Assembly (NCBI RefSeq): GCF_013284035.1
Contig: NZ_CP054141.1
Location: forward strand, 1,488,001-1,552,000
Source of the DNA: Flavobacterium sp. M31R6
GTDB taxonomy: Bacteria; Bacteroidota; Bacteroidia; Flavobacteriales; Flavobacteriaceae
Reading direction: 5' to 3'
Length of the DNA stretch: 64,000 nt
The notes beneath the pieces were generated by a model, which saw only the letters and a list, made by a program, of their open reading frames with translations, did not search any database and was not told where the DNA came from. Both the position numbers and the translations under genes were made by a program. Positions 12,239 through 61,015 of this stretch are shown one piece after another. The first letter of the stretch is position 1, and the number at the start of each line of letters is the position of its first letter.

Positions 12239-12252
12239 AGACAAATTTGTCT
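12239..12252. promoter_or_regulatory. Palindromic operator (denitrification-type motif) in the copper locus
   Basis: AGACAAATTTGTCT is a perfect 14-bp palindrome with the same GAC/GTC halves seen upstream of narK, ric, norC and nirK. It lies 64 bp upstream of the GTG start of the second small Cys protein and about 50 bp upstream of its -7 box. That is further away than at narK or nirK, so it could act differently or serve another promoter. Confidence 0.55.
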
Positions 12253-12303
12253 CAAATAACAGGTTTCCTGATTTATATCATCTTTTTTTTTAAGAATGCA
12301 GTC

Positions 12304-12315
12304 TATTTTTACACC
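12304..12315 (+). promoter_or_regulatory. -7 box of the second copper-locus operon
   Basis: TATTTTTA (12304-12311) is one base off the TAnnTTTG consensus and ends 4 nt before the GTG at 12316, exactly as at the paralogous gene (8743-8755). Transcripts are probably leaderless. Confidence 0.5.
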
Positions 12316-12690
12316 GTGAAAAACTTCGTATTCATACTCATCATTGCTATTTTTCTAAAACCTATTTTCCCGGTTATAGAATATGTGGTCAATTATGAAT
12401 ACATTTCAAAGGTACTTTGTGAAAACAAGGCAAAGCCAATGATGCACTGTAACGGGAAATGTCATTTGATGAAAGAAATGGCTAAGGCTGCCGAAAATGA
12501 AAAGCCTGTATCTTCCAATAAAAAGGGATTTTCTCCTGTTGTTGAACTCTTGTTTTTTCAAGAAATCAAAACTTTTTCTATTGCTTCTGTATCATTTTTG
12601 GATAAAGAAAACAATAGTAATACCTATTCCAATTTATATTCCAATTCTCATTTGGAATCACCTTTAAGACCACCCATTTTTATTTCTTAG
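12316..12690 (+). CDS. Small Cys/Met/His-rich membrane protein, paralogue 2
   Basis: A near-duplicate of the protein encoded at 8755, also 124 residues from GTG. The hydrophobic N-terminus and the ligand loop (C35, M42, M43, H44, C45, C49, H50, M52) are identical in key residues and the C-terminus is again RPPIFIS. A TTG start at 12247 would lie inside the palindromic operator and is rejected. Duplication of the gene with its promoter, once before mbnP and once before the Met/His lipoprotein, suggests each copy heads one copper operon. The function is inferred. Confidence 0.7.
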   Translation: MKNFVFILIIAIFLKPIFPVIEYVVNYEYISKVLCENKAKPMMHCNGKCHLMKEMAKAAENEKPVSSNKKGFSPVVELLFFQEIKTFSIASVSFLDKENNSNTYSNLYSNSHLESPLRPPIFIS

Positions 12691-12830
12691 ATTTTTAAAT
12701 TACTATAATTTAGGCTGTTTGATTTTTCAAAGAGCATATCTTTTATGGAAACAATTGTTTCGTTTTTCGAGAAAATTAATTGCACAATGTAAGTGTTTTA
12801 ATTGGCTTCGTGAGTTCGCTAAATTTTATG

Positions 12831-12953
12831 CGGGCGTGACCCTTCGTAAAAACTACGGGTCGGGCTTTACGTTCCCGCTTTTTTTTTTTCAATTGCCACG
12901 GGTTTAAACCCGTGGCAATTGAAAAAAAAGAGCTCCACTGCAATCCCTCACGC
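12831..12953 (+). repeat. Dispersed structured repeat, family A, copy 2 (variant with long palindrome)
   Basis: It starts GGGCGTGACC and ends CCCTCACGC like copy 1, with a short CGTA-AAAAC-TACG stem followed by GGTCGGGC. The second hairpin is replaced by a perfect palindrome at about 12888-12929 (arms CAATTGCCACGGGTTT and AAACCCGTGGCAATTG, flanked by T and A runs). The palindrome is followed by AGAGCTCCACTGCAA, shared with copy 6 at 47309. It fills most of the 312-bp gap between two copper-locus genes. Confidence 0.8.
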
Positions 12954-13002
12954 AAAACAAACAAACACAATCAAGATTTAATTAAAAAAAAATACATTTC
13001 AA

Positions 13003-13851
13003 ATGAAAATTCAATTTAAAAAAAATATTATATTATTATTTGCTGCTCTTGCTTTTGCCTCTTGTTCTTCAGATTCTACTGAGCCTACTGTGGATGAACT
13101 GGACGGACTTACAAAATTTAAAGAAATAACCAACACAACTCATACCATAGAGCTGTACCGACATATGGGAGGATTAGTGCAAGGATATAATGAAGTGGGT
13201 TTAAGAATCAAAGATAATTCCACTGGGCAATACGTAAAAAATGCAACAGCAAGTTGGATGCCTTTGATGCATATGACTTCAATGACGCATTCTTGTCCAA
13301 AATCTAAAATTGAAAAAGCATCTGCCGAAGCGACATTATATGAAGGATATATTGTTTTTCAAATGGCACAAAACACTACCGAATATTGGGATCTAAAAAT
13401 AGATTATACTATCAATGGAACTACATACACTGCAACTTCAGTTATTGATGTACCCGCATCTACAAAACAAACGGTAACTACATTCAAAGGTACTGATGGA
13501 GTGCGATATGTTGTTGCCTATGCAGAACCGCATCACCCAAAAGTAGCAATCAATGATATCGAGGTGGCTATTTTTAAAATGCAAGACATGATGACTTTTT
13601 CTGTTGTGGATAATTATAAACTGAAAATTGATCCAAGAATGCCAAGTATGGGCAATCATAGTTCTCCTAATAATGTTGATTTGACTCAAACAGCAGTGGG
13701 TGGATTATACAAAGGGAAATTATCACTTACAATGACAGGTTATTGGAAAATAAACTTACAATTATTGAATGCCAATAATGAAGTTTTAAAAGGAGAAGCT
13801 ATTACAGATGCTGTTCCTGCAAGCAGTATTTACTTTGAAATAGAATTCTAG
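13003..13851 (+). CDS. Met/His-rich lipoprotein with two YtkA/FixH-like domains
   Basis: A 282-residue lipoprotein (lipobox FASC, Cys21). Two Ig-like beta domains can be seen. The first contains WMPLMHMTSMTHSC at about residues 85-98, and the second contains RMPSMGNHSSPNN near 213-225. Met/His pairs of this kind at the start of YtkA/FixH-like domains bind Cu(I) in related proteins. It lies between the duplicated small Cys protein and the TonB receptor and is followed by a terminator. A periplasmic or surface copper-binding role is inferred from sequence and neighbours. Confidence 0.68.
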   Translation: MKIQFKKNIILLFAALAFASCSSDSTEPTVDELDGLTKFKEITNTTHTIELYRHMGGLVQGYNEVGLRIKDNSTGQYVKNATASWMPLMHMTSMTHSCPKSKIEKASAEATLYEGYIVFQMAQNTTEYWDLKIDYTINGTTYTATSVIDVPASTKQTVTTFKGTDGVRYVVAYAEPHHPKVAINDIEVAIFKMQDMMTFSVVDNYKLKIDPRMPSMGNHSSPNNVDLTQTAVGGLYKGKLSLTMTGYWKINLQLLNANNEVLKGEAITDAVPASSIYFEIEF

Positions 13852-13857
13852 TTGAAT

Positions 13858-13900
13858 AAAAAAAGGTCAATTGTCGATTTTTGATTTTTGACCTTTTTTA
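13858..13900 (+). terminator. Terminator after the Met/His lipoprotein gene
   Basis: AAAAAGGTCAA (13860-13870) pairs with TTGACCTTTTT (13888-13898) across a 17-nt loop, immediately after the stop codon. Confidence 0.75.
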
Positions 13901-13991
13901 TATGGGTTTTAAATTATTTTAAACCCGATTAATTAACAGAGTAACGTCTGTGCGGATTTATTAATCTTGTGCATACAAAAAAAATATTTCG

Positions 13992-15989
13992 ATGAAGAAA
14001 CCATTATTTTTCCTTTTGGTGTATTTCTTAATTTCTGTAACCCTTTTTGCTCAACAAGAATTAAAGGATTCAATAGCTCCAAAACCATTGAATGAAGTTA
14101 TCGTTATTGGAAAGAAAGCCAAACTGTATCAAAAACAAAGCAAACCACTTGCCACGATTGATGAATACCTGCAACAATCCAGTAAAGTCGATATGATAAA
14201 AAGAGGGGGGTATGCATGGGAACCGATAATCAACAGTATGGCTACGGAGCGAACATTGATCACTATAGATGGTATGCGTATTTTTGGAGCCTGCACTGAT
14301 AAAATGGATCCCATTACTTCGTATGTGGAAGTTTCAAATTTGGCAGAAGCCACAATTGTTTCCGGACAGGAGGGAGGGTGCCACGGTGCGACAATTGGCG
14401 GTGCTATTGATTTGAAAAAAAATCAAAGCAGTTTCGCAAACGCTGGTTGGAACGCGGATTTAAATGCAGGTTATGAGTCGAACAGTAATCAGAAAATTAT
14501 AGGTTCGGCGGTCAGTTACGCAAAGGAATCATTTTATATCGATACCGATTTTATGCTTCGAAAAGCAGACAATTATTTTGCTGGGAATAACGAAGAAATA
14601 GATTTTTCCCAGTTCCAAAAAATTAATATTTCTGCTTCTTCCGGCTTGCGTTTGGATACCGATAAAATGATTAAAACAGCTGTAATCTACGACAAAGCAA
14701 CCAATGTGGGGTATCCTGCGTTGCCTATGGATGTTTCTTTGGCCGAAGCACTGATAACTTCGTTGAGTTATGAATATGTTCCCGCAGGGACAACGCTTCA
14801 ATCTTGGGAAACCAAGCTGTATTACAATACCATTACACATATTATGGATGATACCAAGCGTCCCAATGTTCCTGTACACATGGATATGCCGGGCTGGAGT
14901 GATACATACGGAATGTATTCAAAAGCAAAAGGTGTTTTTGGACAGCATCATTTCACTGCAGATTTTAGCTCGTTCTATAACCGTTCCATTGCTGAAATGA
15001 CGATGTATCCCAATGATCCAAACGAAAATTTAATGTTTATGTACACTTGGCCAGATGTCAGGACTTTGTATTATGGTTTGTTTTTGGAAGATCATTTGGC
15101 TCTTAATACCAATTCAAATTTACTGTTTACTGCAAGTATCGCCAGTCATAGTAATAAAGTGGCTAGTCAATTTGGGTTGCAAAGCCTGCAGATTTTTTAT
15201 CCCAATATGGATGCTGTCAATATTAGATTTCTTGGTGGTTTTTCGGCCAAGTACAGTTATACCAGAAATGGTTTTGAATACGGTTTGGGATTAGGGTATG
15301 GAGAACGCGCTCCTTCAGTTTCTGAAGGTTATGGGTTTTATTTGTTCAACAGTTTTGATGGATACGATTATATTGGAAATCCTGATTTGGACAACGAGCA
15401 ATCCTTTGAATCAAGTGTGTCTTTTGGTTACTCCAAAAGTAAATGGAGTTCTAAATTATCGGCAACTTTTTTTCATGTTTCAAATTATATAGTGGGAGCG
15501 CCAGATGTAAATTTAATTCCTATGACAATTGGTGCCAATGGGGTGAAAATATATGAAGCCCTTGATTATGCCACTATTTTTAATATGGATTTGAATTTAG
15601 AATATCAAATTTTGGAAAGCCTCAAATGGCAAGGACAGTTGGTTTATGCGTATGGGAAAGAAAGCAAGAACAGGAATTTACCCTTTATCAGCCCATTCAG
15701 TTATTCCAGTACATTTAATTATTTCAAAAAACAAATTTCAGCCTCGATTGCTATTGTTGGAAATGCAGCTCAATCACGGTTTAGTCCGTACTATGGTGAA
15801 AATAAAACGCCGGATTATGCTGTTTTAAATATTTCTGCGGGTTATTCTTTTTATGTTGAAAAAAGCAAATTGAATATTAAGACTGGAGTTGAAAATATTT
15901 TTGATACCTATTATTCTACTTTTTCTAGTTGGAATAATATTCCGAATAAAGGGAGAAATTTTGTTTTGAATCTGAATTTAGCATTATAA
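13992..15989 (+). CDS. TonB-dependent receptor, probable copper receptor (OprC/NosA-like)
   Basis: A 665-residue outer-membrane receptor with a signal peptide (cleavage near FAQQ), a plug domain at about residues 30-150 and a 22-strand barrel ending in an aromatic C-terminal strand (FVLNLNLAL). The plug has GMRIFGACTDKMDPITS (C101, M105) and GQEGGCHGATIGGAIDL (C130, H131). The C-x3-M motif followed by DPxTSY resembles the Cys/Met copper ligands of OprC/NosA receptors. The barrel is unusually Met/Trp-rich around residues 295-355 (HMDMPGW, MTMYP, MFMYTWPD). There is no carboxypeptidase-like N-terminal extension. It is the likely import gate of the copper locus. The terminator upstream implies its own promoter. 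Confidence 0.82.
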   Translation: MKKPLFFLLVYFLISVTLFAQQELKDSIAPKPLNEVIVIGKKAKLYQKQSKPLATIDEYLQQSSKVDMIKRGGYAWEPIINSMATERTLITIDGMRIFGACTDKMDPITSYVEVSNLAEATIVSGQEGGCHGATIGGAIDLKKNQSSFANAGWNADLNAGYESNSNQKIIGSAVSYAKESFYIDTDFMLRKADNYFAGNNEEIDFSQFQKINISASSGLRLDTDKMIKTAVIYDKATNVGYPALPMDVSLAEALITSLSYEYVPAGTTLQSWETKLYYNTITHIMDDTKRPNVPVHMDMPGWSDTYGMYSKAKGVFGQHHFTADFSSFYNRSIAEMTMYPNDPNENLMFMYTWPDVRTLYYGLFLEDHLALNTNSNLLFTASIASHSNKVASQFGLQSLQIFYPNMDAVNIRFLGGFSAKYSYTRNGFEYGLGLGYGERAPSVSEGYGFYLFNSFDGYDYIGNPDLDNEQSFESSVSFGYSKSKWSSKLSATFFHVSNYIVGAPDVNLIPMTIGANGVKIYEALDYATIFNMDLNLEYQILESLKWQGQLVYAYGKESKNRNLPFISPFSYSSTFNYFKKQISASIAIVGNAAQSRFSPYYGENKTPDYAVLNISAGYSFYVEKSKLNIKTGVENIFDTYYSTFSSWNNIPNKGRNFVLNLNLAL

Positions 15990-16079
15990 TTTCAACAAAA
16001 TAAAGAGATAATCTCTTTTTTAAAGGCAATATATGTCATTTTCAAATTGTATTTTTGAATACTATTAAAAAAATAACTC

Positions 16080-17249
16080 ATGATTTCCGTTCAAGAAGCT
16101 TTTTCGACATTAGAGCAAAATTTGCCTGCTTTGCACAAAGTGGAATATCCTCTTTTTAAAGCCAGAAAACATATTTTAGCAGAATCCATTTTGTCACCAA
16201 TCAATATGCCTCCTTTTCGTCAATCGGCGATGGATGGATTTGCTTTGTGTTTACATGATGCTTTGGTCTATGAAATTGTCGGCGAAATAAAAGCGGGAGA
16301 TTCTCACAAAGTAGAATTACTTCCGGGACAGGCTGTGAAGATTTTTACGGGAGCTGCAGTGCCAGATTCGGCTCAGGCTGTAATTCAAATTGAGAAGGTC
16401 TCTGCAAACGGAACGCAATTATTGTTGGACGAATTAGCGGAACCCGAAACAAATGTCAGACCCATTGGCGAACAAATTTCGGAAGGGGATTTGGCTCTCG
16501 AAAAAGGAACTTTGTTAAATGCCGCAGCGATTGGTTTCTTGGCAGGACTTGGTTTTACAAATGTAAAGGTTTTTCAAATGCCAAAAATAGGTATTGTAGT
16601 GACTGGAAATGAACTTACCAAACCAGGAACACCACTCGAACACGGAAAAGTGTATGAGAGCAACGGAATTATGTTGCAATCGGCTTTGCTGGATGCGTAT
16701 TATGATGCGGTGACTTTGTATGAAGTCAATGATGATTTTGAAAATACCAAAAGCAAACTGAATGACGCTTTAACAAACAACGAACTGGTTTTGGTTTCCG
16801 GCGGAATATCGGTCGGGGATTATGATTTTGTGGCAAGAGCTTTAAGAGAACTTCAGGTGCAAACATTATTTCATAAAGTCAATCAAAAACCGGGAAAACC
16901 TTTATTTGCAGGAAAGTTTCAAAATAAAATGATTTTCGCATTACCTGGAAATCCTGCGGCTTGCTTAACTTGTTTTTATGTGTATGTTTTGCCCACATTG
17001 GCAATTATGTCGGGTGCTGAGGCGAATTACAAACAAGCTATATTGTTTCCTTTATCCGATGATTTTGAAGTTAGAAACAGCCGCTCCCAGTTTTTGAAAG
17101 CAAATATCAGCAATGGAGAAGCACAAATCCTGTCACATCAAAATTCGTCCATGCTTAATTCTTTTTCAGTTTCAAACGGATTGATTTACGTTCCCCACGG
17201 ACATTATGAATTGAAAAAAGGGGATATGGTTGAGGTGTATTTGTTGTAG
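16080..17249 (+). CDS. moeA: Molybdopterin molybdotransferase MoeA
   Basis: MoeA (EC 2.10.1.1) inserts molybdate into adenylylated molybdopterin. The 389 residues carry the N-terminal FRQSAMDGFAL motif near residue 43, TGAAVPDSAQAVIQIE near 97, the MPT-binding domain with VSGGISVGDYDFV near 241, PGKPLFAG near 277 and ALPGNPAACLTCF near 292. The domain order is normal. It is separated from the main cofactor cluster (24.4-29.4 kb) and stands 90 bp after the TonB receptor gene. Its product serves the nitrate reductase at 33.9 kb. Confidence 0.95.
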   Translation: MISVQEAFSTLEQNLPALHKVEYPLFKARKHILAESILSPINMPPFRQSAMDGFALCLHDALVYEIVGEIKAGDSHKVELLPGQAVKIFTGAAVPDSAQAVIQIEKVSANGTQLLLDELAEPETNVRPIGEQISEGDLALEKGTLLNAAAIGFLAGLGFTNVKVFQMPKIGIVVTGNELTKPGTPLEHGKVYESNGIMLQSALLDAYYDAVTLYEVNDDFENTKSKLNDALTNNELVLVSGGISVGDYDFVARALRELQVQTLFHKVNQKPGKPLFAGKFQNKMIFALPGNPAACLTCFYVYVLPTLAIMSGAEANYKQAILFPLSDDFEVRNSRSQFLKANISNGEAQILSHQNSSMLNSFSVSNGLIYVPHGHYELKKGDMVEVYLL

Positions 17250-17281
17250 TTATTCATAAAAACCAAATTACCTATTTGAAA

Positions 17282-17713: not shown

Positions 17714-17784
17714 ATTTTATTACTATTTAAGTTGAAAAATCATCGTCAGTAATTGATTGCTAGTTGAAAATTTCTGAGGCACTT

Positions 17785-29488: not shown

Positions 29489-29570
29489 TTTTTCATGCAA
29501 CAAGAGTTTATTATAAAATCCCTGATAAAAGTCATTGTTGGCATTATACAATAGTGAATAACTTTGTAAA

Positions 29571-30521
29571 ATGAAGGCAGAAGCAGAATCCAATAAAAAA
29601 GGGTACAATAACTATGGCACCCATCTCCGCGAAAAATACAACGGCAAAAAAGTTTTCAAAGTAATAGTCGATGGCAATTTTAGCTGTCCCAACCGCGATG
29701 GGCTAAAAGGCTACGGAGGTTGCACCTATTGCAATGTCGATTCCTTCACCCCAGATTTTTCCAGAAAAGCGCCCACGATAGAAGATCAATTGCTTCAAGG
29801 AATGGAGCGTGCCAAAAAATCATACAAAGCCGATCATTTTATTGTCTACTTCCAACCAAATACCAATACTTATGCTCATGTAGATTATCTAAAAACGATT
29901 TACGACCGGGCTTTGGCTTTCAATCCCGATGAGGTGGTTGGGTTTTCGGTGGGGACGCGTCCCGATTGCATTGATGCCGAAAAAGTGGCTTTGCTCGAAA
30001 GCTATTGCGACCGATTCGAAGTCGATCTCGAAATGGGAATGGAGTCCATGTATGACGAAACTTTAGAAAAAATAAACCGTGGCTGCACCCATGCCGAGTT
30101 CATCACCGCAGTGGAATTGTTAAAAGACAGTCCAATCGATTTGTGTGTGCATACCGTTTTCGGATTCCCTTGGGAAACCCGAGAAATGATGCTTAATTAC
30201 ATCAATGAAATAAACCGTTTTCTGCAAATAAAATTCGTAAAATTCCATCATCTGCACATCGTCGAAGGTTCTATTATGGGCGTACATTACAAACGAAATC
30301 CGTTTCCGCTCTTCACATTGGAACAATACACCGACTTGCTTTGCGACTTAATCCCACTCCTGCGACCAGACATAATCATTCAGCGCCTTTTCGGAATCTC
30401 CGATTGGGATTTGCTCATCGCCCCAAATTGGGGACTCAAAAAAACCGAAATCCAGCATTATATCGATTCCACAATCGAAAAAAGAGGAATTATTCAAGGT
30501 TCAAAATACACCACCATATAG
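29571..30521 (+). CDS. Radical SAM protein, TIGR01212 (YhcC-like) family
   Basis: A 316-residue radical SAM protein. The cluster motif is the extended FSCPNRDGLKGYGGCTYCNVDSF near residues 36-58 (C-x12-C-x2-C type typical of TIGR01212), followed by YFQPNTNTYA near 97. FSVGTRPDCI and EVDLEMGMES lie near 135-160, and HTVFGFPWETREMM near 205. The family has no established substrate. It is not part of the moa operon, since a foldback repeat and about 200 bp separate them. Confidence 0.85.
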   Translation: MKAEAESNKKGYNNYGTHLREKYNGKKVFKVIVDGNFSCPNRDGLKGYGGCTYCNVDSFTPDFSRKAPTIEDQLLQGMERAKKSYKADHFIVYFQPNTNTYAHVDYLKTIYDRALAFNPDEVVGFSVGTRPDCIDAEKVALLESYCDRFEVDLEMGMESMYDETLEKINRGCTHAEFITAVELLKDSPIDLCVHTVFGFPWETREMMLNYINEINRFLQIKFVKFHHLHIVEGSIMGVHYKRNPFPLFTLEQYTDLLCDLIPLLRPDIIIQRLFGISDWDLLIAPNWGLKKTEIQHYIDSTIEKRGIIQGSKYTTI

Positions 30522-30783: not shown

Positions 30784-30907
30784 ACCTTCACGCTATCTCA
30801 ACAAATTCAATGAAGATGAAGCTTTTGCATTCATAATGGAATTTTATCCTTAGCTGATAAAAGTCATATTTTATATTCTTTTTGCCCCTTAATTTTACAT
30901 CATAAAT

Positions 30908-30927
30908 AAAAGACTCTTTTGTCTTTT
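30908..30927. promoter_or_regulatory. Operator in front of narK (AAAAGAC-N6-GTCTTTT)
   Basis: A perfect 7-bp inverted repeat with a 6-bp spacer, 14 bp upstream of the narK ATG. It lies directly downstream of a TTAATTTTAC box (about 30890-30899) that is almost identical in sequence and spacing to the one at nirK. This position overlaps the expected transcription start, as for a repressor site. Confidence 0.7.
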
Positions 30928-30941: not shown

Positions 30942-32534
30942 ATGAAAACTTGGCTAGACAAATGGGAACCGGAAAACGAAGAATTCTGGGAAAATACAGG
31001 CAGTAAAATTGCTTGGAAAACTTTGATAATTACAACATTGTCATTGATAATGTCTTTTGGATCGTGGTTTATGATGAGTGTAATAGCAGTGAAATTGCCA
31101 GGTCTTGGTTTTCCATTTTCTAAGGATCAGCTTTTTTGGCTGGTTGCCATTCCTGGATTAGCAGCAGGATTTTTAAGAATTATACACACTTTTATTCTGC
31201 CCATTTTTGGTACAAGACATGTAGTAACCGTGGCAACTTTACTTAAATTAATTCCGGCAATTGGAGTTGGATTTGCGGTGATGGACACCAATACTCCTTA
31301 TTGGGTATTTGTTCTTTTGGCTATTACTACTGGTTTTGGAGGTGGAGATTTTTCCTCCTTTATGCCTAGCACAAGTTTGTTTTTTCCAAAAAGGCTGAAA
31401 GGAACAGCATTGGGAATCCAAGCAGGAATTGGGAATTTTGGTGTTAGTTTAGCCCAATTTGTTACGCCGCTTATTTTGAGTGTTAGTATCTACGGTGCTT
31501 CATCGGTATTTACAAGTATTGATCCCAAAGAAACGCAGAAAGTTTTTATAGACTCAACAATTGGAAAACAAAGAGAAGTTTTTGCAGCTTTGGATACTAA
31601 AGCACAAAATCATATTTTGGCCAATGTTAAGAAACCGGTATTGGATTCGGTTATTGCGGCATCAGGCTCTAATGAAAATGTCGAAATTTTTGCAGCATTG
31701 CCACAGAAAGTGAAATCGAAAGCGATTGCTAACGCCAATCCTAAATTGGCCGAACGAATAATAAACAATATTAGTCCCGGCAATGAGGCGGTTAAAAATA
31801 TAAACATCTACATCCAATCGGCAGCATTTTGGTATTCTGGATTTCTTTTGGGTCTGGCACTTGTCAGTTGGTTGTTTTTAAAAAGTATTCCAATGCAGGC
31901 TTCAATAAAAGAGCAAATGGATATTTTTAAAAATAAGCATACTTGGTATTGTACGATTACTTATTTAATGACATTTGGGACGTTTGCAGGACTATCGGCA
32001 GCATTTCCTTTGATGATTAAATATTTGTATGGCGATTTTCCAAATGCTCCAGATCCGTTGGCGTATGCTTTCTACGGCCCGCTTATTGGTTCTGCCAGCA
32101 GAGTCGCTTTTGGTTTTGTAGCCGATAAAATTGGGGGAGCCATATTGACTACCATCACCGGAATCGGGATTTTAACAGGTGCCATTATTTTGGTAACCCA
32201 AGGATTGGTTTCGCCAACGAGCATGGATCAGTTTCCGATGTTTGTAGGAGTAATTTTGGCAATGTTCTTTTTTACCGGAATTGGTAATGCGGGTACATTT
32301 AGACAATTTCCAATCATCTTTTCTGAGAATCAGCGTCAAGCGGCTGGTGTAATTGGATGGACTGCTGCAATCGCTGCTTTTGGACCTTTTATCTTTTCTA
32401 AATTAATTGGAAATAACATCACAGCAAATGGTTCTGTAAATCAGTTCTTTATTGGTTTGATTGTTTTCACTATATTAGCAACAAGTATTAATTGGTGGTT
32501 TTACAACCGTAAAGGATGTGAGAAACCGAGTTAG
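30942..32534 (+). CDS. narK: Nitrate/nitrite transporter NarK (MFS) with long central loop
   Basis: A 530-residue major facilitator with about 12 transmembrane helices. Nitrate-porter signatures are visible, for example AIPGLAAGFLRI near residue 69, GFGGGDFSSFMPSTSLFFPKRLKGTALGIQAG spanning about 131-163, and GSASRVAFGFVADKIGGA near 384. NarK imports nitrate and/or exchanges it for nitrite. Between the two six-helix halves, residues about 187-287 form an extra hydrophilic, Lys/Asn/Ala-rich segment that most NarK proteins lack. It is followed after 227 bp by the nitrate-reductase membrane subunit and has its own operator. Confidence 0.92.
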   Translation: MKTWLDKWEPENEEFWENTGSKIAWKTLIITTLSLIMSFGSWFMMSVIAVKLPGLGFPFSKDQLFWLVAIPGLAAGFLRIIHTFILPIFGTRHVVTVATLLKLIPAIGVGFAVMDTNTPYWVFVLLAITTGFGGGDFSSFMPSTSLFFPKRLKGTALGIQAGIGNFGVSLAQFVTPLILSVSIYGASSVFTSIDPKETQKVFIDSTIGKQREVFAALDTKAQNHILANVKKPVLDSVIAASGSNENVEIFAALPQKVKSKAIANANPKLAERIINNISPGNEAVKNINIYIQSAAFWYSGFLLGLALVSWLFLKSIPMQASIKEQMDIFKNKHTWYCTITYLMTFGTFAGLSAAFPLMIKYLYGDFPNAPDPLAYAFYGPLIGSASRVAFGFVADKIGGAILTTITGIGILTGAIILVTQGLVSPTSMDQFPMFVGVILAMFFFTGIGNAGTFRQFPIIFSENQRQAAGVIGWTAAIAAFGPFIFSKLIGNNITANGSVNQFFIGLIVFTILATSINWWFYNRKGCEKPS

Positions 32535-42853: not shown

Positions 42854-43055
42854 AGGTAAAACTTTGAAGCTACACGTTTCTATAGGCTTTCTAAAAGATT
42901 CAAAAAAAATGTTTTTGTTAAAAAAATTGCCTTTGTGGTTTTCGCAACCCGCAAATCTATTGCAATATGTTTCATGTGACTATGACATTTATCAGCTTTT
43001 AAGCAAATTTGTATGGTGATATTTGCATAAAGTTTAATAAACCAATTTTATACCT

Positions 43056-46780: not shown

Positions 46781-47215
46781 TTAGTATCGCAAAAAAGTAT
46801 CTCCGGTCTTAATTCCTAAAGCTAATTCCTCCAGATTCGTATTTTCGAGCATAAAAGCTAATTCGTTTCGAATAGATTTGAATTTCTCATGCATCGGGCA
46901 CGGATGGTCTTCGGAGCAATGTGTCAGACCTAGACCACAACCCGTAAAAACGCGGTCGCCTTCCAGGGCATTTACTATTTGAGCCAGTTTGATCTCTTTC
47001 ATCGTCTCTCGAGGAATTTCGAAACCGCCTCCAACTCCCTTTATGGAATTGATAATGTTGTCTTTTGATAAAATTTGAAGAATTTTGGCCGTAAAAGCTT
47101 CAGGTGAATCTATTTTTTTGGCAATGTCTTTGAGTCCAACTCTTTTGTTCTGATAAGATTCTGAAGCTATGAAAATCGTGGCTCGAATGCCGTATTCGCA
47201 GGTTTTGGAAAACAT
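46781..47215 (-). CDS. Rrf2-family transcription regulator (NsrR/IscR-like, Fe-S sensing)
   Basis: A 144-residue winged-helix protein. FSKTCEYGIRATIFIA starts the domain, DIAKKIDSPEAFTAKILQIL is the helix-turn-helix, and SIKGVGGGFEIPR is the wing. Three Cys (C93, C100, C106) in TGCGLGLTHCSEDHPCPMHEK match the cluster-binding loop of NsrR/IscR proteins. NsrR senses NO through this cluster and represses NO-detoxification and denitrification genes. Here the regulator lies beside ric and the nor/nir genes, and a shared palindrome precedes those operons, so it is the best candidate regulator. IscR-type control is the alternative, but no isc/suf genes are in the window. Confidence 0.85.
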   Translation of the reverse strand: MFSKTCEYGIRATIFIASESYQNKRVGLKDIAKKIDSPEAFTAKILQILSKDNIINSIKGVGGGFEIPRETMKEIKLAQIVNALEGDRVFTGCGLGLTHCSEDHPCPMHEKFKSIRNELAFMLENTNLEELALGIKTGDTFLRY

Positions 47216-52544: not shown

Positions 52545-53276
52545 TTATGATTGTGCCGAAAAATCTTTTTCGAGCTTGGTTGCTTTTGGGAATAAAATAT
52601 TATTTTCCAAATGGATGTGTTTGTGTAAATCGGCCTCAAATTCCTGTAGCATGGCAAACGTTACTTTATAAGTGTTGCATCCATCTGCAGGCGGTGTGTA
52701 ATTATTGCTTAATGCTGCTATTCTTCTAAAACGTTCCCCTTCGGCATCGTGTTCGTGCATCATCATGGAGATTGGGTTTTCAACTGTTCCAAAATGAGGC
52801 TGCTCAATCAATTGATCCGAAATAGTAGCATGAACCATTTTTTTGATAAAAGGGAACAAAATCAGCTCTTCTTTTTTCATGTGCTGTGCCAATTCTCCAG
52901 CACATCCTTTAAATAGTTCATTTATTTCAAGTAACTCCGGATGATTGGCTCCATGCACTCTGCTTAATTTGTCCAAAAATTGAAGCAGTGTTGGTGTTTT
53001 TTCTGAAACATAACGGTGATGCGTTTTTTCTATATAATCGGCTAATAAATCAATCGGCCATGAATTGAAATCGATTCCAGAATCACTTTTTGACGATAAA
53101 ACGGTTTCAATTTCCTGTAATAAATCTTCAGGATTAACTGATTTTTTCTCACATGCTTCTTCAATGCTTCTGTTACCATTGCAACAAAAATCGATGCCAT
53201 ATTTTGAAAATAAAGCTGCTGTTCTAAAGTCTTTTGCTACATATTCACCTATTGTAATTTTTTCTAAAGTTTCCAT
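52545..53276 (-). CDS. ric: Iron-sulfur cluster repair di-iron protein Ric (YtfE/ScdA)
   Basis: A 243-residue protein. The N-terminal ScdA_N domain covers about residues 1-65 (TIGEYVAKDFRTAALFSKYGIDFCCNGNRSI in pieces), and the hemerythrin-like domain has the His/Glu di-iron ligands in KTHHRYVSEK near 89, HGANHPEL near 112, HMKKEELILFPF near 135, MHEHDAEGE near 175 and LHKHIHLENNILFPKA near 216. It repairs clusters damaged by NO or peroxide. It heads the anaerobic operon ric-nrdD-nrdG and has an operator in its promoter. Confidence 0.93.
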   Translation of the reverse strand: METLEKITIGEYVAKDFRTAALFSKYGIDFCCNGNRSIEEACEKKSVNPEDLLQEIETVLSSKSDSGIDFNSWPIDLLADYIEKTHHRYVSEKTPTLLQFLDKLSRVHGANHPELLEINELFKGCAGELAQHMKKEELILFPFIKKMVHATISDQLIEQPHFGTVENPISMMMHEHDAEGERFRRIAALSNNYTPPADGCNTYKVTFAMLQEFEADLHKHIHLENNILFPKATKLEKDFSAQS

Positions 53277-53330: not shown

Positions 53331-53350
53331 AAAAGACAAATTTATCTTTA
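53331..53350. promoter_or_regulatory. Operator upstream of ric (AAAGACAAATTTATCTTT)
   Basis: An 18-bp palindrome with one mismatched pair (AAAGAC versus AAAGAT half-sites) around a central AAATTT, flanked by A/T. It shares its core with the sites at 12239, 30908, 53610, 53646 and 60995 and overlaps the -33 region of the ric promoter. Confidence 0.65.
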
Positions 53351-53609
53351 ATTAAATATATTATTTTTTATTTCGTTTAAATAATTGAAAAAGAAATGAA
53401 TGAGATTTAGGTATCTTCTTTTTTTGACTTTATAATTTTACGACTAATTGAAAAATTGGAACATGATTTTTATCATATTTTGATAAGGACTTAAGAACAT
53501 TTTGCTGTTGAAAACTTATCTAATTGAAAATTTTGTTCGCCATTATATATATTATGGTGTAAAATAAATATGTAGAAAAAAAATAAAAATAAATGAGAAT
53601 TATTATAAT

Positions 53610-53666
53610 AAAAGACAAAAATATCCTTTATATTTGCATTTAAATAAAAGACAAATTTATCCTTTA
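53610..53666 (+). promoter_or_regulatory. norC promoter with two flanking operator copies
   Basis: A perfect -7 box TATATTTG (53629-53636) is bracketed by two copies of the same 21-bp sequence type. Site 1 (53610-53630) starts AAAAGACAAAAATATCC just upstream, and site 2 (53646-53666) starts AAAAGACAAATTTATCC just downstream, over the start of transcription. The leader to the ATG at 53709 is about 65 nt. Such a pair would allow tight repression of the nor operon. The remaining part of the 432-bp ric-norC gap is AT-rich without a gene. Confidence 0.7.
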
Positions 53667-55615: not shown

Positions 55616-56407
55616 ATGTTAGTAGATACTTTATTACCCGCACCTTATTACCACACAGTTGGCAAAGAAGTGGAAGTCTTTGAACATTCATATAAAAATA
55701 AAATTCCTTTTTTGTTGAAAGGCCCTACTGGAACCGGTAAATCCCGTTTTGTGGAGTATATGGCGCATCGATTGGAAAGAAATCTGATTACAATCAGTTG
55801 TCACGAGGAAACTTCTTCTACCGATTTGATTGGCCGATTTATTATCAAAGGTGCTGAAACTGTTTGGCTAGACGGTCCTTTGACCACTGCCGTAAAAGAA
55901 GGAGCTATGATTTATCTGGATGAAGTGGCCGAAGCCCGTCCCGATGTGATTGTGGCTATCCACTCCTTGACTGACCACCGACGCATCCTGTATATTGACA
56001 AACTGGGAGAAACCATCAAAGCGCATGATAATTTTATGCTGGTTGCTTCTTTTAATCCTGGCTATCAAAGAGGTTTTAAGGAATTGAAACCTTCCACGCG
56101 CCAACGATTTGTAGCTGTCTCATTTGATTATCCAGAAGCGAAAATTGAAACTGAGATTTTGGTTAATGAGGCCAATATTGATAATGACACAGCCAAGAAA
56201 CTAGTAGCCATTGGCAACAAAATTAGAAATCTTACCGAATTGGGATTGACCGAAACGGTTTCGACACGACTTCTTGTAGATGCTGCGAAAATCATCCACA
56301 GCGGATTACCAAAACGATTGGCTGTTCATGTAGCCGTTGTTGAGCCTTTGACAGATGATTTGCAAACAGTCGAAGCACTGAAAGATTTGTGCAATTTGAT
56401 GATTTAA
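55616..56407 (+). CDS. norQ: NorQ-type MoxR AAA+ ATPase
   Basis: A 263-residue CbbQ/NirQ/NorQ ATPase. Walker A GPTGTGKS near residue 38, Walker B MIYLDEVAEARPD near 100, a sensor-1 Asn in ASFNPGYQ near 145 and an arginine-finger region STRQRFVAV follow in order. With NorD it inserts the non-haem iron FeB into NorB. It lies about 130 bp after norB and upstream of norD, across a 200-bp foldback repeat. Confidence 0.93.
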   Translation: MLVDTLLPAPYYHTVGKEVEVFEHSYKNKIPFLLKGPTGTGKSRFVEYMAHRLERNLITISCHEETSSTDLIGRFIIKGAETVWLDGPLTTAVKEGAMIYLDEVAEARPDVIVAIHSLTDHRRILYIDKLGETIKAHDNFMLVASFNPGYQRGFKELKPSTRQRFVAVSFDYPEAKIETEILVNEANIDNDTAKKLVAIGNKIRNLTELGLTETVSTRLLVDAAKIIHSGLPKRLAVHVAVVEPLTDDLQTVEALKDLCNLMI

Positions 56408-56611
56408 GTCATTGCGAGGAACGAAGCAATCTCACGATCAGAAGTTAGTGGCTTCAATATCATTTGGAATTGAAAGAAACAAAAAATTATATAAATAAGG
56501 GCATTGTAGAACAAAAAACTCACATCATTACTCGCATGGATTTACGAAGTGTGATTGCTTCGTTCCTCGCAAGGATATGCTAAATGTGATTGCTTCGTGC
56601 CTCGCAATGAC
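56408..56611. repeat. Foldback repeat between norQ and norD (GTCATTGCGAGG family)
   Basis: GTCATTGCGAGGAACGAAGC (from 56408) is complementary to the right arm at 56586-56611, which ends CCTCGCAATGAC. A second right-hand arm, GTGATTGCTTCGTTCCTCGC, lies at 56551-56570. The same family word GTCATTCCGA occurs inside family D copy 1 at 30690. It adds a spurious upstream ATG to norD. Confidence 0.8.
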
Positions 56612-56618
56612 AAAAATT

Positions 56619-58394
56619 ATGGGTTTCGAGATAGATGAATACTTGGTTGGGAAGTTTTTCAAGCACTTAAAAAGCAGAAAAAAAATAAGTCCCGAAATAG
56701 AAGCCAGAACGGTTACTCTTGCCGAGATTAAACCGCGCTTGACTATTATGGCGCGTGCCTTGACAGGAAATCCGATCGAAATATTTTCTGCCGAAAGGGA
56801 AGGTGGATACAAAAACAATAATTTTTTTCTTCCGATTTCGTTTGCCGAATTTCCAACTCTGGAAGAGAACCTTACTTTCTATCATTTTAGAATGTTGTAT
56901 CTCAGTGTACAACAGCGCCTTAATTACAATTGGGCAGCGGAAGAAATCGAGCCGGAATTATTCCTTTCCCAACAAAAAGCATTAGAAACATCAGATGACG
57001 TTCTAGCCATTTTGTTTCAGGAGTTTTCTATTGACGAACAGTTTTTGGCGTATGCCAAAAATCATTTTATCCAAAAATCAGATGCTAAAAAAAGCCCTGA
57101 TTTCTCTTGGCTCTTTGGCAAATGGATGAAAAATGAAATGGTAATCGATAGTGAGAATGTGTTGCAGAACTTCTCGGATAAGACCAAAAAACCAAATGAG
57201 ATTCAGCCTTTAACTACACTAAAAGCAAAAGCCGTTGAGGAAGTCATCACAGTGGAACTTGATAAAAAACAGCAGGAGGATTATGTGATGCTGCATAATT
57301 TTGAAAAAGTGGAAACCGCCGAAGAATTTAACGGAAACTGGCGTGATTTTGACGGATCGGATGAGTTGGAAGATCATCAGGATGCATTGGAAGAACTGAA
57401 TATGAAATACACCGTTCGCGTTGACGATACGGCACATTCTGTTTACCAATCCGATTTTATGGAAAACACAACCATCTCCGAAAGTGCGTCTGTCGATGAC
57501 AAAGGATTTCACCATTCCTACGACGAATGGGATTTTAGCAAAAACAGCTACAAAGAAAATTTTTGCAAAGTATATCCAAAATCACAACTAAAAGCGGATG
57601 CCGATTATTACAAAAAAACAATAACTAAGAATGCTTCCATCTTGATGGGCTTGCGCAAAATGTTGACGAATGTCAACAATAAAATGCAACAACAAAAAAG
57701 GCAAACCCAAGGCGACGAATTTGATATCGATGCCATCACCGATTTATATGTCGATGTGCATTCCAGAAGAACGCCATCGGATAAAATTTATGTTTCGAAC
57801 CGAAAAAAAGAAAAGGATTTGTCGATTCTGATTCTGCTAGACATCAGTCTTTCAAGCGACGGTTACGCTGCCGGAAACAGAGTGATTGATGTGGAGAAAG
57901 AAGTTTCTATTTTGTTTGGGGAAATCCTCAATGAGTTCAATATCGATTTTTCGATAGACAGTTTTTATTCCAAAACAAGAAATTATTCGACTTATCTGAC
58001 CATCAAAGATTTTGATGAAAATTGGAATGTCGCCAAACATAAAGTAGGAGCAGTAGAACCCAGTGGTTATACCAGAATTGGTGCCGCACTGAGGCATGCA
58101 GGAGTTCGCCTCGACAAACGAAGCACCAAAAACAAATGGGTGATTTTAATCTCTGACGGAAAACCCAACGATTACGATAAATACGAAGGAAAATATGGAG
58201 TCAATGACGTAAAACAAGCCCTTCGCGAACTCAATTCGAAAAACATTAATTCCTACGCATTGGCCATTGAGGCCGAAGCCAAATATTATTTGCCTCAAAT
58301 GTTTGGGCAAAACCACTATCAAATTTTGACAACTCCCGTTGAGTTGCTGCAATCGTTAGTGAAACTATACGAAAAGATAAAACACCAAAAATAA
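56619..58394 (+). CDS. norD: NorD-type von Willebrand factor A protein
   Basis: A 591-residue protein starting at MGFEIDEYL (56619). ATGs at 56577 and 56607 are inside the foldback repeat and are not credible. The N-terminal about 350 residues are helical and acidic. The C-terminal VWA domain has the MIDAS motif LDISLSSDGY near 420, TRIGAALRHAG near 496 and VILISDGKPNDYDKY near 516. It partners NorQ in cNOR activation. Length is close to NorD of Proteobacteria. Confidence 0.9.
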   Translation: MGFEIDEYLVGKFFKHLKSRKKISPEIEARTVTLAEIKPRLTIMARALTGNPIEIFSAEREGGYKNNNFFLPISFAEFPTLEENLTFYHFRMLYLSVQQRLNYNWAAEEIEPELFLSQQKALETSDDVLAILFQEFSIDEQFLAYAKNHFIQKSDAKKSPDFSWLFGKWMKNEMVIDSENVLQNFSDKTKKPNEIQPLTTLKAKAVEEVITVELDKKQQEDYVMLHNFEKVETAEEFNGNWRDFDGSDELEDHQDALEELNMKYTVRVDDTAHSVYQSDFMENTTISESASVDDKGFHHSYDEWDFSKNSYKENFCKVYPKSQLKADADYYKKTITKNASILMGLRKMLTNVNNKMQQQKRQTQGDEFDIDAITDLYVDVHSRRTPSDKIYVSNRKKEKDLSILILLDISLSSDGYAAGNRVIDVEKEVSILFGEILNEFNIDFSIDSFYSKTRNYSTYLTIKDFDENWNVAKHKVGAVEPSGYTRIGAALRHAGVRLDKRSTKNKWVILISDGKPNDYDKYEGKYGVNDVKQALRELNSKNINSYALAIEAEAKYYLPQMFGQNHYQILTTPVELLQSLVKLYEKIKHQK

Positions 58395-58420
58395 GAACAA
58401 ACATTGAGGATACTTTTTAA

Positions 58421-58483
58421 ACCATATAAGTCATATAAGTCCATATAAGTAAAGCTTAAATGCTCTTACATGACTTATATGGT
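58421..58483. repeat. Foldback with CATATAAGTCAT arms
   Basis: ACCATATAAGTCAT (58421-58434) faces ATGACTTATATGGT (58470-58483), with further CATATAAGT copies between. It is the third member of the family at 45889 and 47951 and lies just after norD. Confidence 0.75.
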
Positions 58484-58532
58484 AAAAAATCGGCTCTTAA
58501 ATAATCCTTTAATGGTTTAAAATTTAATTAAA

Positions 58533-59486
58533 ATGATAGAAACAGAATTACAAGAAGGTCATCCAGTTTGGAATTACTTTCAGGAAAAGGAATTAATAGT
58601 GTCTCTTTTGCAAGAGATTACAAACGTTAACCCATTGATTGATTTACCAAAATACACCAACATATTCAATCAGTTGCTTACGATAGAGAAACGATTTGCC
58701 CGCAAAGAAAATCAGCTTTTTCCTTTTTTAGAGAAAAAAGGTTGGGTTGGTCCATCGCAGGGAATGTGGTCGTTTCATGATAATTTAAGAGAGCAATTCC
58801 GTTTGATTCAGTATTATCTCAAAATGATTAATTTAGAAAAAGTTTCAACTAATACTCCTTTTTTGATAGACGGAATTTACAGATTGATGGGAGTTGAAGA
58901 AAACGTCCTGTTCCCAAATGCATTGGACATCCTTACCGAAAATGATTGGATCGAAATGCGCAAAGGTGAAGAAGAAATAGGTTGGATGTTATCTCAAACA
59001 CCACCGCCTTTCCCAAAAGTGGAATACATCCACCCGAGCGAAGATTTTACCATCAGGGAAATGCCTTTTTCGTTGGAAAACACTTCGCATTATGACGAAG
59101 GATACATGACAGTGGAACAGGTGAATTTGCTTTTCAAAACCATGCCATTGGATTTGACTTATGTGGACGAAAATGATAAAGTGATTTTTTATAACAGAGG
59201 AGAAGAACGCGTGTTTCCAAGAAGTGCTGGAATCATTGGCCGTGAAGTGAAGTTTTGCCATCCACCAAAAAGCGTAGGAACGGTTCTCAGAATCTTGGAC
59301 GAATTCAGGAAAGGAACTCAAAACGAATCTTCTTTTTGGATTAACTACAAAGATCGCTTGATTTACATCCGCTATTTTGCCGTAAGGGATGCCAATAAAA
59401 ACTATAAAGGCGTGATCGAAATGTCACAGGATATTACCGACATCAAGAAAATTGAAGGTGAAAAAAGATTATTGGATTGGGAGTAA
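58533..59486 (+). CDS. DUF438/PAS sensor-like protein with hemerythrin-type N-terminus
   Basis: A 317-residue soluble protein. Residues about 1-145 are helical with HHE-type ligands (GHPVWNYFQEKE at 9, ENQLFPFLEKKG near 60, WSFHDNLREQF near 83, MGVEENVLFPNA near 118). Residues about 205-310 form a PAS domain of the DUF438-linked type: LPLDLTYVDENDKVIFYNRG-like segment near 208, GREVKFCHPPKSV near 235 and GVIEMSQDITDI near 297. It has no output domain. Within the nor cluster it could sense NO or redox state, or bind haem/iron, and act with another protein. The role is inferred. Confidence 0.8.
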   Translation: MIETELQEGHPVWNYFQEKELIVSLLQEITNVNPLIDLPKYTNIFNQLLTIEKRFARKENQLFPFLEKKGWVGPSQGMWSFHDNLREQFRLIQYYLKMINLEKVSTNTPFLIDGIYRLMGVEENVLFPNALDILTENDWIEMRKGEEEIGWMLSQTPPPFPKVEYIHPSEDFTIREMPFSLENTSHYDEGYMTVEQVNLLFKTMPLDLTYVDENDKVIFYNRGEERVFPRSAGIIGREVKFCHPPKSVGTVLRILDEFRKGTQNESSFWINYKDRLIYIRYFAVRDANKNYKGVIEMSQDITDIKKIEGEKRLLDWE

Positions 59487-59530
59487 AAAAGAATTAAGAT
59501 TGCAGATTTCAGAATTTGGAGCGGAAGGAT

Positions 59531-59771
59531 TAGGCGTTTTTTGGAAATATTGTCCCGCTTTCCGTTACAATCTCCCGATGAAAAATCGGGAGGATTTCCA
59601 CTGCAATCGGGGCTAAAGGGCAATGTCATTAAGTTAAGGGAGAAATTAAAAAAACAGCACGCAGATTCAGCAGATTCGGCAGATTTTTTACTTTTTTTCT
59701 GCGTAAATCTGCGAAATCTGCGTGAAAATAAAAATAGTAATTCCTTAACTTAATGACATTGGGCTAAAGGG
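59531..59771 (+). repeat. Family B repeat, copy 3, interrupted by the family D element
   Basis: It contains TGTCCCGCTTTCCGTTACAA, a CTCCCGAT/ATCGGGAG hairpin and GATTTCCACTGCAATCGGGGCTAAAGGG, and then is interrupted at 59621-59761. It resumes after a second GGCTAAAGGG with TTTTTTGCCATCAT, as in the uninterrupted copy at 21866. No gene is in the 426-bp gap 59487-59912. Confidence 0.8.
59621..59761. mobile_element. Small non-autonomous inverted-repeat element, family D, copy 2
   Basis: Perfect 19-bp terminal inverted repeats (CAATGTCATTAAGTTAAGG, 59621-59639, and its complement 59743-59761) bound a 141-bp element with no coding capacity. A perfect 10-bp duplication, GGCTAAAGGG, flanks it (59611-59620 and 59762-59771). 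The interior carries GCAGATT/AATCTGC repeat words. This is the signature of transposition of a MITE-like element into a family B repeat. Confidence 0.85.
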
Positions 59772-59912
59772 ATAAATTTTGATTTTTTGCCATCATGTAA
59801 GAAAGAAAACTGTAATAATGAGTTCCAATTTTCAAAATCAAAAATCTACAATTCAAAAGTCTTCAATTTAAAATCGGAATTCAAAAATCGTTAATCCTCA
59901 ATCTAAAATCAA

Positions 59913-60494
59913 ATGGAAACTCTAAAAATAAATTACAAAAACATCTATTATCCGCCAGGAGGAATCTTGATGTGGATTATCATTTTTCTAGAACTCATTA
60001 CTTTCGGAATGGCATTGATTGCATTCGTGTATTATGGAAGTGAAAACACAGCCGTATTTCATCAGTCAAGAATGCAATTGAACACTACTTTTGGAGCCGT
60101 TAATACCGTTTTCTTATTGACAAGCGGTTTTTTTATGGCCAATGCAGTATATCTGTTTAAAGAAAATGAAGTCAAGAAATCATCGGTATTCTTTAAGTTG
60201 GCTATGCTTGGAGGATTTTTCTTCTTGGCACTCAAAAGCGTAGAATATTATCATAAAATAGAAAGCGGAATTTCATTGGATACCAATATGTTCTACACTT
60301 TTTATTGGTTGTTGACTGGTTTCCATGTAATCCATGTCATTATGGGATTGGTTATCTTGGGATGGACAAACTACGGAATGACCAAAAAAGATTCCGATAC
60401 AGCTGTTGAAGACGTTGAAGCCTGTGCCGCTTTTTGGCACATGTGCGATTTGATTTGGTTGCTTTTATTTCCTACACTTTATTTATTTTTTTAG
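59913..60494 (+). CDS. norE: Cytochrome c oxidase subunit III-like protein NorE
   Basis: A 193-residue membrane protein with five transmembrane helices, the form of subunit III seen in nor clusters. Signatures are YPPGGILMWIIIFLELITFG near the N-terminus, FLALKSVEYYHKIESG near 110, FYWLLTGFHVIHVIMG near 130 and AAFWHMCDLIWLLLFPTLYLFF at the end. NorE is an accessory protein of nitric oxide reduction. The gene starts after the family B/D repeat region and is followed 2 nt later by norF. Confidence 0.9.
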   Translation: METLKINYKNIYYPPGGILMWIIIFLELITFGMALIAFVYYGSENTAVFHQSRMQLNTTFGAVNTVFLLTSGFFMANAVYLFKENEVKKSSVFFKLAMLGGFFFLALKSVEYYHKIESGISLDTNMFYTFYWLLTGFHVIHVIMGLVILGWTNYGMTKKDSDTAVEDVEACAAFWHMCDLIWLLLFPTLYLFF

Positions 60495-60496
60495 TA

Positions 60497-60739
60497 ATGA
60501 AAAATTCACTAATTTTAATCTATATATTTCTGTTAATTATCACTATTACAACAGCTTGCCTGTCAAGTTTGTTTGGTGTGTCAGCTTTTATTACCTCTTT
60601 GATAATGGGTTTGGCTGTTTTTAAATTTCTGTTGGTTGCTTTTCAATTTATGGAATTAAAAAAGGCGCATTCGTTTTGGAAAATCAGTTTAATAATAACT
60701 TTAGGATTGATTATAGTTTTGATTATTGGGATTAAATAG
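60497..60739 (+). CDS. norF: Subunit IV-like protein NorF
   Basis: An 80-residue protein with three transmembrane helices. The pattern GLAVFKFLLVAFQFMELKKAHSFWK near residues 39-63 matches the subunit IV/NorF family. It starts 2 nt after the norE stop. The longer ORF from 60434 reads through norE in another frame and is rejected. It forms the NorE-NorF pair of denitrifiers. Confidence 0.82.
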   Translation: MKNSLILIYIFLLIITITTACLSSLFGVSAFITSLIMGLAVFKFLLVAFQFMELKKAHSFWKISLIITLGLIIVLIIGIK

Positions 60740-60994
60740 TTACTAAGTACCTAAGATTCTAGGTCGCTAAGATTAAGAAGATAATCTAAAAAAATCATGC
60801 TCAGTTAATCTATGGAATTGATAAAATGTGAAAGTGGTTAGAAAAGGTTTGTGAACTTTTTTCAACTTAGAATCTCAGTTGCTTGGAATCTTAGCAACTT
60901 AATTAATGGATAAAATAGGGTCTTAAAAAAAAGTTAAAAACATGATATTTATCATTAATTTTTTGAATCTCAAATTTTAATTTTACAACATAAT
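60740..60994. other. AT-rich spacer upstream of nirK
   Basis: The stretch between norF and the nirK operator has no gene. It contains CTAAGATTCTAGG/CTTAGAATC-type inverted words near 60755-60900, similar to other low-complexity spacers in the window. It leads into the nirK promoter box TTAATTTTAC (60977-60986). Confidence 0.4.
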
Positions 60995-61015
60995 AAAAGA
61001 CAAAACTATCCTTAA
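60995..61015. promoter_or_regulatory. Operator upstream of nirK
   Basis: AAAAGACAAAACTATCCTT matches the norC sites at most positions. It follows a TTAATTTTAC box with almost the same sequence and spacing as at narK, and lies about 30 bp upstream of the ATG. Confidence 0.65.

Follow-up and report, generated by a model that had tools for sequence, protein, structure and literature searches.

A palindrome predicted to be an Rrf2 operator is paired with an Fnr-type box at denitrification promoters of Flavobacterium sp. M31R6

The window analyzed here, a 64,000-nucleotide stretch of the Flavobacterium sp. M31R6 genome (contig NZ_CP054141.1, positions 1,488,001 to 1,552,000), encodes an Rrf2-family regulator, ric, norC-norB-norQ-norD (nor names given from context), nirK, narK and a set of copper genes that includes MbnP- and CCP_MauG-family proteins, a YtkA-like protein and a TonB receptor. 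An initial annotation had proposed that a palindrome found at six places joins a copper-acquisition operon, narK, ric, nor and nirK in one nitric oxide (NO)-responsive regulon that is read by the Rrf2 protein. The copper operon, on the plus strand, opens with a GTG-started small protein gene (12316 to 12690), a paralogue of the gene at 8755 to 9129, and continues with the YtkA-like protein (PF13115; 13003 to 13851) and the TonB-dependent receptor (13992 to 15989), whose best model, TonB-copper, scores 131.6 bits, below its cut-off of 472.45. The nitrate/nitrite transporter gene narK (30942 to 32534, plus strand) scores 266.5 bits against TIGR00886, below the cut-off of 311.7. The minus strand carries the rrf2 gene (46781 to 47215) and ric (52545 to 53276), which encodes an iron-sulfur cluster repair di-iron protein (TIGR03652, 248.2 bits, cut-off 204.7). 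On the plus strand follow norC (PF00034; 53709 to 54143) and norB (PF00115; 54155 to 55489), with norQ- and norD-like genes next to them, and nirK (61046 to 62506), a copper nitrite reductase with a cytochrome c domain (TIGR02376, 346.5 bits, cut-off 296.3). The NorB protein is 99% identical to NorB of Flavobacterium taihuense. A NosZ search of the strain's own genome, run without a positive control, gave no match; hence, the strain may end denitrification at nitrous oxide (N2O).

We describe the palindrome by an exact core, RGAYANNNNTRTCY or RGAYA-N4-TRTCY, and a relaxed core, RGAY-N6-RTCY. The exact core occurs in the window at 12239, 53334, 53613, 53649 and 60998 and nowhere else: five matches compared with 0.51 expected, a count of at least five being reached in 0 of 100 dinucleotide shuffles. 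These are five of the six places named by the initial annotation, namely the copper operon (AGACAAATTTGTCT, 12239 to 12252, upstream of the small gene at 12316), ric (AAAAGACAAATTTATCTTTA, 53331 to 53350), norC twice (53610 to 53629 and 53646 to 53665) and nirK (60995 to 61014). The sixth, at narK (AAAAGACTCTTTTGTCTTTT, 30908 to 30927), is one base off the exact core and fits the relaxed one. All six sites are thus where they had been placed. Their description as AAAGAC...GTCTTT halves does not hold literally for ric, norC and nirK, where the left half has GAC and the right half ATC, but the shared palindrome is real. Similarly, narK and nirK do share the box TTAATTTTAC, which contains the -7 box TAATTTTA (30890 to 30897 and 60978 to 60985, respectively), and this -7 box starts 18 bp before the palindrome at narK and 17 bp before it at nirK. 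At norC, the -7 box TATATTTG (53629 to 53636) has one palindrome just 5' of it and one 3'. The palindromes at narK, norC and nirK therefore lie after or around the -7 box, the repressor-like placement that had been suggested. In the whole genome (4.46 Mb, one contig), four distinct sites match the longer pattern AAAGAYAAANNTRTCYTTNA perfectly, and each lies in the window: ric and nirK have one apiece and norC has two. Six more places have one mismatch; four lie inside mechanical open reading frames and two are intergenic, and no denitrification gene was recognized at any of the six.

The same promoters carry a second element, an Fnr-type box (TGAYNNNNRTCA), which the initial annotation overlooked. 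In 45 of 56 box pairs found in the 80 bp before norC, nirK and ric, a -7 box (TANNTTTG) starts 29 bp after the center of the Fnr-type box. In the window this offset is 29 at nirK (ATGATATTTATCAT, 60942 to 60955), at narK (CTGATAAAAGTCAT, 30854 to 30867), at the second copper small gene (CTGATTTATATCAT, 12268 to 12281, with the -7 box TATTTTTA at 12304 to 12311) and at nadA of nadA-nadB (box at 42983 to 42994, minus strand). It is 28 at the first copper small gene, 30 at a radical SAM gene at 29571 (box at 29523 to 29534) and, judged from the coordinates, 29 for a degenerate norC box (ATGAGAATTATTAT, 53593 to 53606) that is intact in some relatives. At narK, the offset was also 29 for all seven boxes picked in relatives. 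An offset of 29 to the Bacteroidota -7 box would put the Fnr-type box near -41.5, which is the usual position of a Crp/Fnr activator.

A candidate for that activator is encoded elsewhere in the genome. The Crp-type regulator G000:C1:3647045 belongs to the Crp/Fnr group by its helix-turn-helix domain (PF13545, 62.5 bits, cut-off 27) and scores 89.4 bits against the Fnr model PRK11161 (NF008365), short of the cut-off of 228. It has cysteines at positions 4, 7 and 29 and then at 53, 59, 106, 132 and 193. An Fnr-type box starts 53 bp upstream of its gene, and the locus holds further Fnr-type boxes together with cbb3-oxidase-like and hemN-like genes (names by eye). We consider this protein the likely reader of the Fnr-type box. 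The excerpt of a CRP/FNR survey predicts carbon sensing for Flavobacteriales homologues (PMC8510549). Because the Fnr-type box is conserved, the regulon appears to have a dual input rather than to answer to NO alone, and it likely combines an Fnr-type activator with an Rrf2 repressor.

To see whether the palindrome recurs at orthologous genes, we examined the targets in 80 nor loci, taking 170 bp upstream of each gene. The relaxed core was present upstream of norC in 69 of 79 regions, of nirK in 37 of 56 and of ric in 39 of 41, for Markov expectations of 1.3, 0.7 and 0.3; the exact core was present in 44, 16 and 38 of these regions, respectively. Control genes of the same loci rarely had the relaxed core: norQ 0/76, norD 1/75, coxIII 1/69, fge 1/57, a cytochrome gene 3/55, nrdD 1/28, p48117 0/18 and copD 0/15. 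For narK, stretches were selected by their Fnr-type box, and a relaxed core lay near that box in seven of eight (the window and seven genus genomes). The core is upstream of the Fnr-type box in two of the narK stretches (L369 and L372). A third stretch (L371) has its box some 1.5 kb ahead of the narK-like gene, and this box may belong to a different gene. Conservation upstream of orthologues, which the initial annotation had named as a check, is thus found before ric, norC, nirK and narK in most of the relatives examined. The exact 20-mer AAARGAYANNNNTRTCYTTT was searched for in 149 genomes of the family; of the 28 loci that we read, 12 have it at rrf2, ric, norC or the copper small gene. Separately, in four genomes (L157, L159, L161 and L164) one and the same palindrome, AAAGGATATAATTATCCTTT, is separated by about 107 bp from a gene that by eye resembles those for metal-efflux RND proteins; perhaps this is one mobile island.

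Which protein reads the palindrome? Rrf2 genes were drawn from the 149 Flavobacteriaceae genomes, and we divided them at 43.5% identity to the window protein into class 1 (at least 43.5%; 58 loci) and class 2 (51 loci). Sixteen loci of IscR-like paralogues served as controls, four of an original 20 (L302, L311, L312 and L313) having been dropped when tblastn gave no Rrf2 match. Within 100 bp upstream of rrf2, the exact core occurs in 46 of 58 class-1 loci (Markov expectation 0.02) and 17 of 51 class-2 loci, compared with 0 of 16 controls; the relaxed core occurs in 51 and 35 loci of the two classes. A core also lies within 60 bp downstream of rrf2 in 25 of the 58 class-1 loci, and ric, often directly 3' of this downstream core, is found within 3 kb and in the same direction as rrf2 in 32. 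In seven nor loci (L049 and L055 to L060) rrf2 is divergent from norC, and the palindromes between them are operator-like, some of them degenerate. In a tree, the window protein clusters with nor-adjacent Rrf2 proteins (support 97/95) inside class 1. One supported group (100/99) takes in every class-1 row and, in addition, two rows of class 2; class 2 does not form a single clade.

Perhaps the palindrome is instead read by a Crp/Fnr protein? The promoters do carry Fnr-type boxes, and in the excerpted text of one study proteobacterial denitrification genes are often under Crp/Fnr regulators (PMC1274295). However, the Fnr-type box is distinct from the palindrome and has a fixed spacing, and the exact core, which is found at rrf2 genes, was in none of the five Crp-type loci of M31R6 that we checked (one of them below the Pfam cut-off; two have one relaxed core each). 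We regard a Crp/Fnr reader of the palindrome as very improbable. The Rrf2 protein, proposed as reader from the outset, is by far the best candidate, given the contrast between class-1 genes and paralogue controls and the lack of the exact core at the Crp-type loci.

Several observations weigh against a single Rrf2-read regulon. With two mismatches allowed, the motif is not enriched in the M31R6 genome (75 places versus 81 for the reversed control; 120 versus 114 in a second count), and we therefore did not use these loose counts to estimate regulon size; the signal resides in the best sites and in their promoter positions. Likewise, the exact 20-mer is only mildly raised in the family, with 32 sites in 28 genomes versus 23 for the reversed control. 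The relaxed core is missing from 10 of 79 norC and 19 of 56 nirK regions, and the counts are not independent, since many of the nor loci come from closely related species and a single intergenic region often lies between ric and norC and serves both. The window's own rrf2 gene has no core upstream, nor do 25 of 33 rrf2 genes of nor loci have a relaxed core in the 170 bp upstream; hence, autoregulation is not seen here. For 50 of the 80 nor genomes, we also set the presence of Rrf2 against that of the norC site. Genomes whose norC lacks the site (L072, L073, L077, L079, L081, L087 and L093) still encode an Rrf2 relative of 50 to 55% identity, and because nearly all nor genomes carry such a relative, its presence or absence does not discriminate. 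Finally, in one metagenome-assembled genome (L085/G181) norC has a site with one mismatch and the Rrf2 match is weak (41.9 bits).

The nature of the signal is a separate question. The window protein is a member of the Rrf2 superfamily (PF02082, 86.5 bits, cut-off 30; TIGR00738, 85.1 bits, cut-off 73.3), and it does have the cysteines C93, C100 and C106 reported for it, together with E7. The excerpt of a report on NsrR of Streptomyces coelicolor describes a 4Fe-4S cluster with Cys93, Cys99, Cys105 and Asp8 (PMC9338935); the three cysteines of the flavobacterial protein are similarly spaced, and E7 is an acidic residue near position 8. Unlike in that NsrR, the cluster here is a prediction, and a PDB sequence search at E 0.001 returned weak Rrf2-family matches and did not match the S. 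coelicolor protein. The triad is present in 109 of 109 class-1 and class-2 proteins, but also in 16 of 16 IscR-like controls, and is therefore no proof of NO sensing. It would also fit a protein that reads the palindrome in response to iron-sulfur status, oxygen or redox, as IscR and RsrR do, with the denitrification genes following. The NCBIfam ranking leans the same way, with a SUF-regulator model (58 bits) and IscR (TIGR02010, 53.1 bits, cut-off 207.55) above NsrR (NF008240, 29.2 bits, cut-off 182), all far under their cut-offs, and ric is itself an iron-sulfur repair gene. Against this, the operator is found at norC, nirK and ric and, with class 2, beside nosZ operons (no search was made for suf or isc targets); and E7, present in 53 of 58 class-1 proteins and in none of the 51 of class 2 (mostly lysine, 44 of 51), falls near the place of the Asp8 ligand in the excerpted NsrR description when aligned by eye. 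We think a signal other than NO unlikely. NO is the signal we infer, because the targets are nor, nirK, ric and nos.

We conclude that the Rrf2 protein of positions 46781 to 47215 very probably uses RGAYA-N4-TRTCY as its operator. It is predicted to repress the promoters that carry this sequence until NO damages its iron-sulfur cluster, and likely acts together with an Fnr-type activator at the box 29 bp before the -7 element. The sequences themselves establish the sites, where they stand in the promoters, that they recur in relatives, their spacing and that rrf2 genes have the same operator, whereas binding, repression, the cluster and the signal are predictions. The two proteins would form an AND gate. 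When oxygen is low, the Fnr-type protein would be recruited to its box near -41.5; NO would lift the Rrf2 block from the polymerase site, so that the NO-making nirK and the NO-removing nor and ric would rise together. The regulon first proposed thus stands in that one palindrome, in a variant form at narK, links ric, nor, nirK and narK; it had missed the Fnr-type element, and its copper link is weaker than was supposed.

The two elements are also set at particular distances from each other. Measured from the centers of Fnr-type boxes that have a -7 box in place, the Rrf2-core center falls at +20 in 26 nirK promoters, at +50 to +59 in other nirK and norC promoters, and at -19 or -20 in 25 promoters on the nos side of class-2 rrf2 genes. 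The window values are +20 (between the Fnr-type box and the -7 box) and +56 (past the -7 box) at norC, +56 (past the -7 box) at nirK, +57 (downstream of the -7 box) at narK and -29 at the copper gene. We searched 299 genomes for the -19 composite, RGAYN6RTCY-N6-TGAYN4RTCA, and found 116 sites in 103 of them, compared with 21 for the reversed control; none was found in the M31R6 genome. Thirty of the composite loci were read. Twenty-one lie within 350 bp of the start of a nos-operon cytochrome gene (17), nirK (2) or a copper small gene (2), and all 21 have a -7 box at 29, versus 1 of the remaining 9. In other genera, class 2 is a second Rrf2 group with the same operator beside nosZ operons: NosZ is encoded in 32 of 51 class-2 loci, 3 of 58 class-1 loci and 0 of 16 controls, and two of the NosZ proteins were confirmed with TIGR04246. 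As a side observation, nadA is present in 9 of the 51 class-2 loci (nadA loci include L274, L288 and L293) and stands beside a copper receptor gene in L342.

The copper operon calls for more caution. Its small gene and the paralogue at 8755 to 9129 (86% identical) head two copper gene groups; the Fnr-type box is at both, the Rrf2 core only at the second. In the window (12304 to 12318) and in several relatives (L354, L355, L356, L359, L360, L361, L362, L364 and L365), the start codon lies about four bases past the -7 box, so the small-gene transcript is predicted to be leaderless. Perhaps the core at 12239 is a chance match, and copper uptake belongs to the Fnr-type regulon only? None of the 12 genus loci with upstream sequence has the exact core before the copper small gene (L358, at 860 bases, was too short to count) and one, L356, has the relaxed core, which weakens the copper link; the Fnr-type box is kept in 11 of the same 12. 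Moreover, one exact core per 64 kb is near the chance rate of 0.51. Yet in the wider family the exact core was found in 4 of 30 copper-small-gene upstream regions chosen blind to the motif, window included, for about 0.04 expected (a rate derived from 3 cores in 392 kb). Six loci were added for motif or rrf2 matches; three have no match, and L156, which has a core, is excluded from the 4 of 30. Composite elements stand at two more copper small genes (L468 and L469). Of 28 genus loci, 4 have rrf2 no more than 1.5 kb away from the gene for the copper TonB receptor. A few genus loci carry a core in front of ytkA rather than the small gene (an exact one in L351, relaxed ones in L332, L336, L339 and L350), a pattern noticed after the fact. 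A chance match at 12239 is a serious possibility, though one that we hold to be somewhat improbable.

Other arrangements touch on the same link. In genome G104, a small gene-TonB-YtkA operon adjoins class-2 rrf2 and nosZ, and both promoters have a core and an Fnr-type box; in L364, which comes from the L339 genome, no more than 3 kb separates the copper genes from rrf2-norC. Compared with the -19 form, the window copper core is shifted upstream, away from the Fnr-type box, by another 10 bp or roughly one turn of the helix. The palindromes before ytkA in the five genus loci lie about 57 to 73 bp upstream of the gene, inside the copper operon, and may be internal Rrf2 sites. The claim that copper uptake belongs to the regulon therefore holds in part: the core at 12239 is present and recurs in other genera, but its exact form is absent from all 12 genus loci. 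The copper link is likely real but lineage dependent, with the Fnr-type box as its more constant part, and for this species it is uncertain. It would be chiefly the Fnr-type box that brings copper uptake under this control, likely joined by an Rrf2 site in some lineages, among them that of the window. The supply of copper would then keep pace with NirK and NosZ, which are copper enzymes.

Control by FNR plus an Rrf2-family protein is known already; the protein subfamily and the operator differ here. In Neisseria, as excerpts of two reports describe it, FNR induces aniA (nirK) and the NO-responsive Rrf2-family protein NsrR represses it (PMC10187123, PMC1274295). The flavobacterial system resembles the aniA and norB control in those excerpts in placing a copper nitrite reductase and an NO reductase under such logic. 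It differs from them in that the Rrf2 protein is not NsrR by NCBIfam, the predicted operator is unlike the NsrR operator gATGyAT-N5-ATrCATc (PMC1274295), the regulon also takes in ric, narK and, in some cases, copper uptake, and many promoters have a fixed Fnr-Rrf2 spacing. For Proteobacteria (Chromobacterium violaceum norB and nirK, and others), the excerpt of the latter report gives promoters in which a DNR site is followed downstream by an NsrR site (PMC1274295). The order of a Crp/Fnr-type site upstream and an Rrf2-type site downstream is the same here, whereas the Rrf2 subfamily, the operator and the Bacteroidota-type -7 element differ from that description. Rrf2 genes beside clade II nos clusters appear in excerpts of two further reports, which suggest nos control (PMC6264515; Melioribacter roseus, PMC3534657). 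As in those clusters, an Rrf2 regulator adjoins nosZ and a c-type cytochrome gene in class-2 loci; the excerpts give neither an operator nor a link to nor, nirK, ric, narK or copper uptake. Among the papers listed by literature searches, none announced an Rrf2 operator of this kind for flavobacteria, most subscription papers and RegPrecise-type databases lying outside the scope of these searches.

We rather favor the view that the Flavobacteriaceae, and perhaps the Bacteroidota at large, have their own composite denitrification code, in which an Rrf2 operator and an Fnr-type box at set spacings (centers 19 to 20 bp apart in many promoters, and the Fnr-type center 29 bp before the -7 box) would join NO, oxygen and copper supply. 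One Rrf2 class would serve nirK, nor, ric and narK, and a sister class nosZ and copper uptake. Flavobacteria include denitrifiers and N2O reducers. With an operator, a candidate reader and a partner box in hand, it may be possible to predict from sequence which of their genes follow NO and which follow oxygen, and whether nosZ and copper uptake rise together with nirK, which bears on N2O release.

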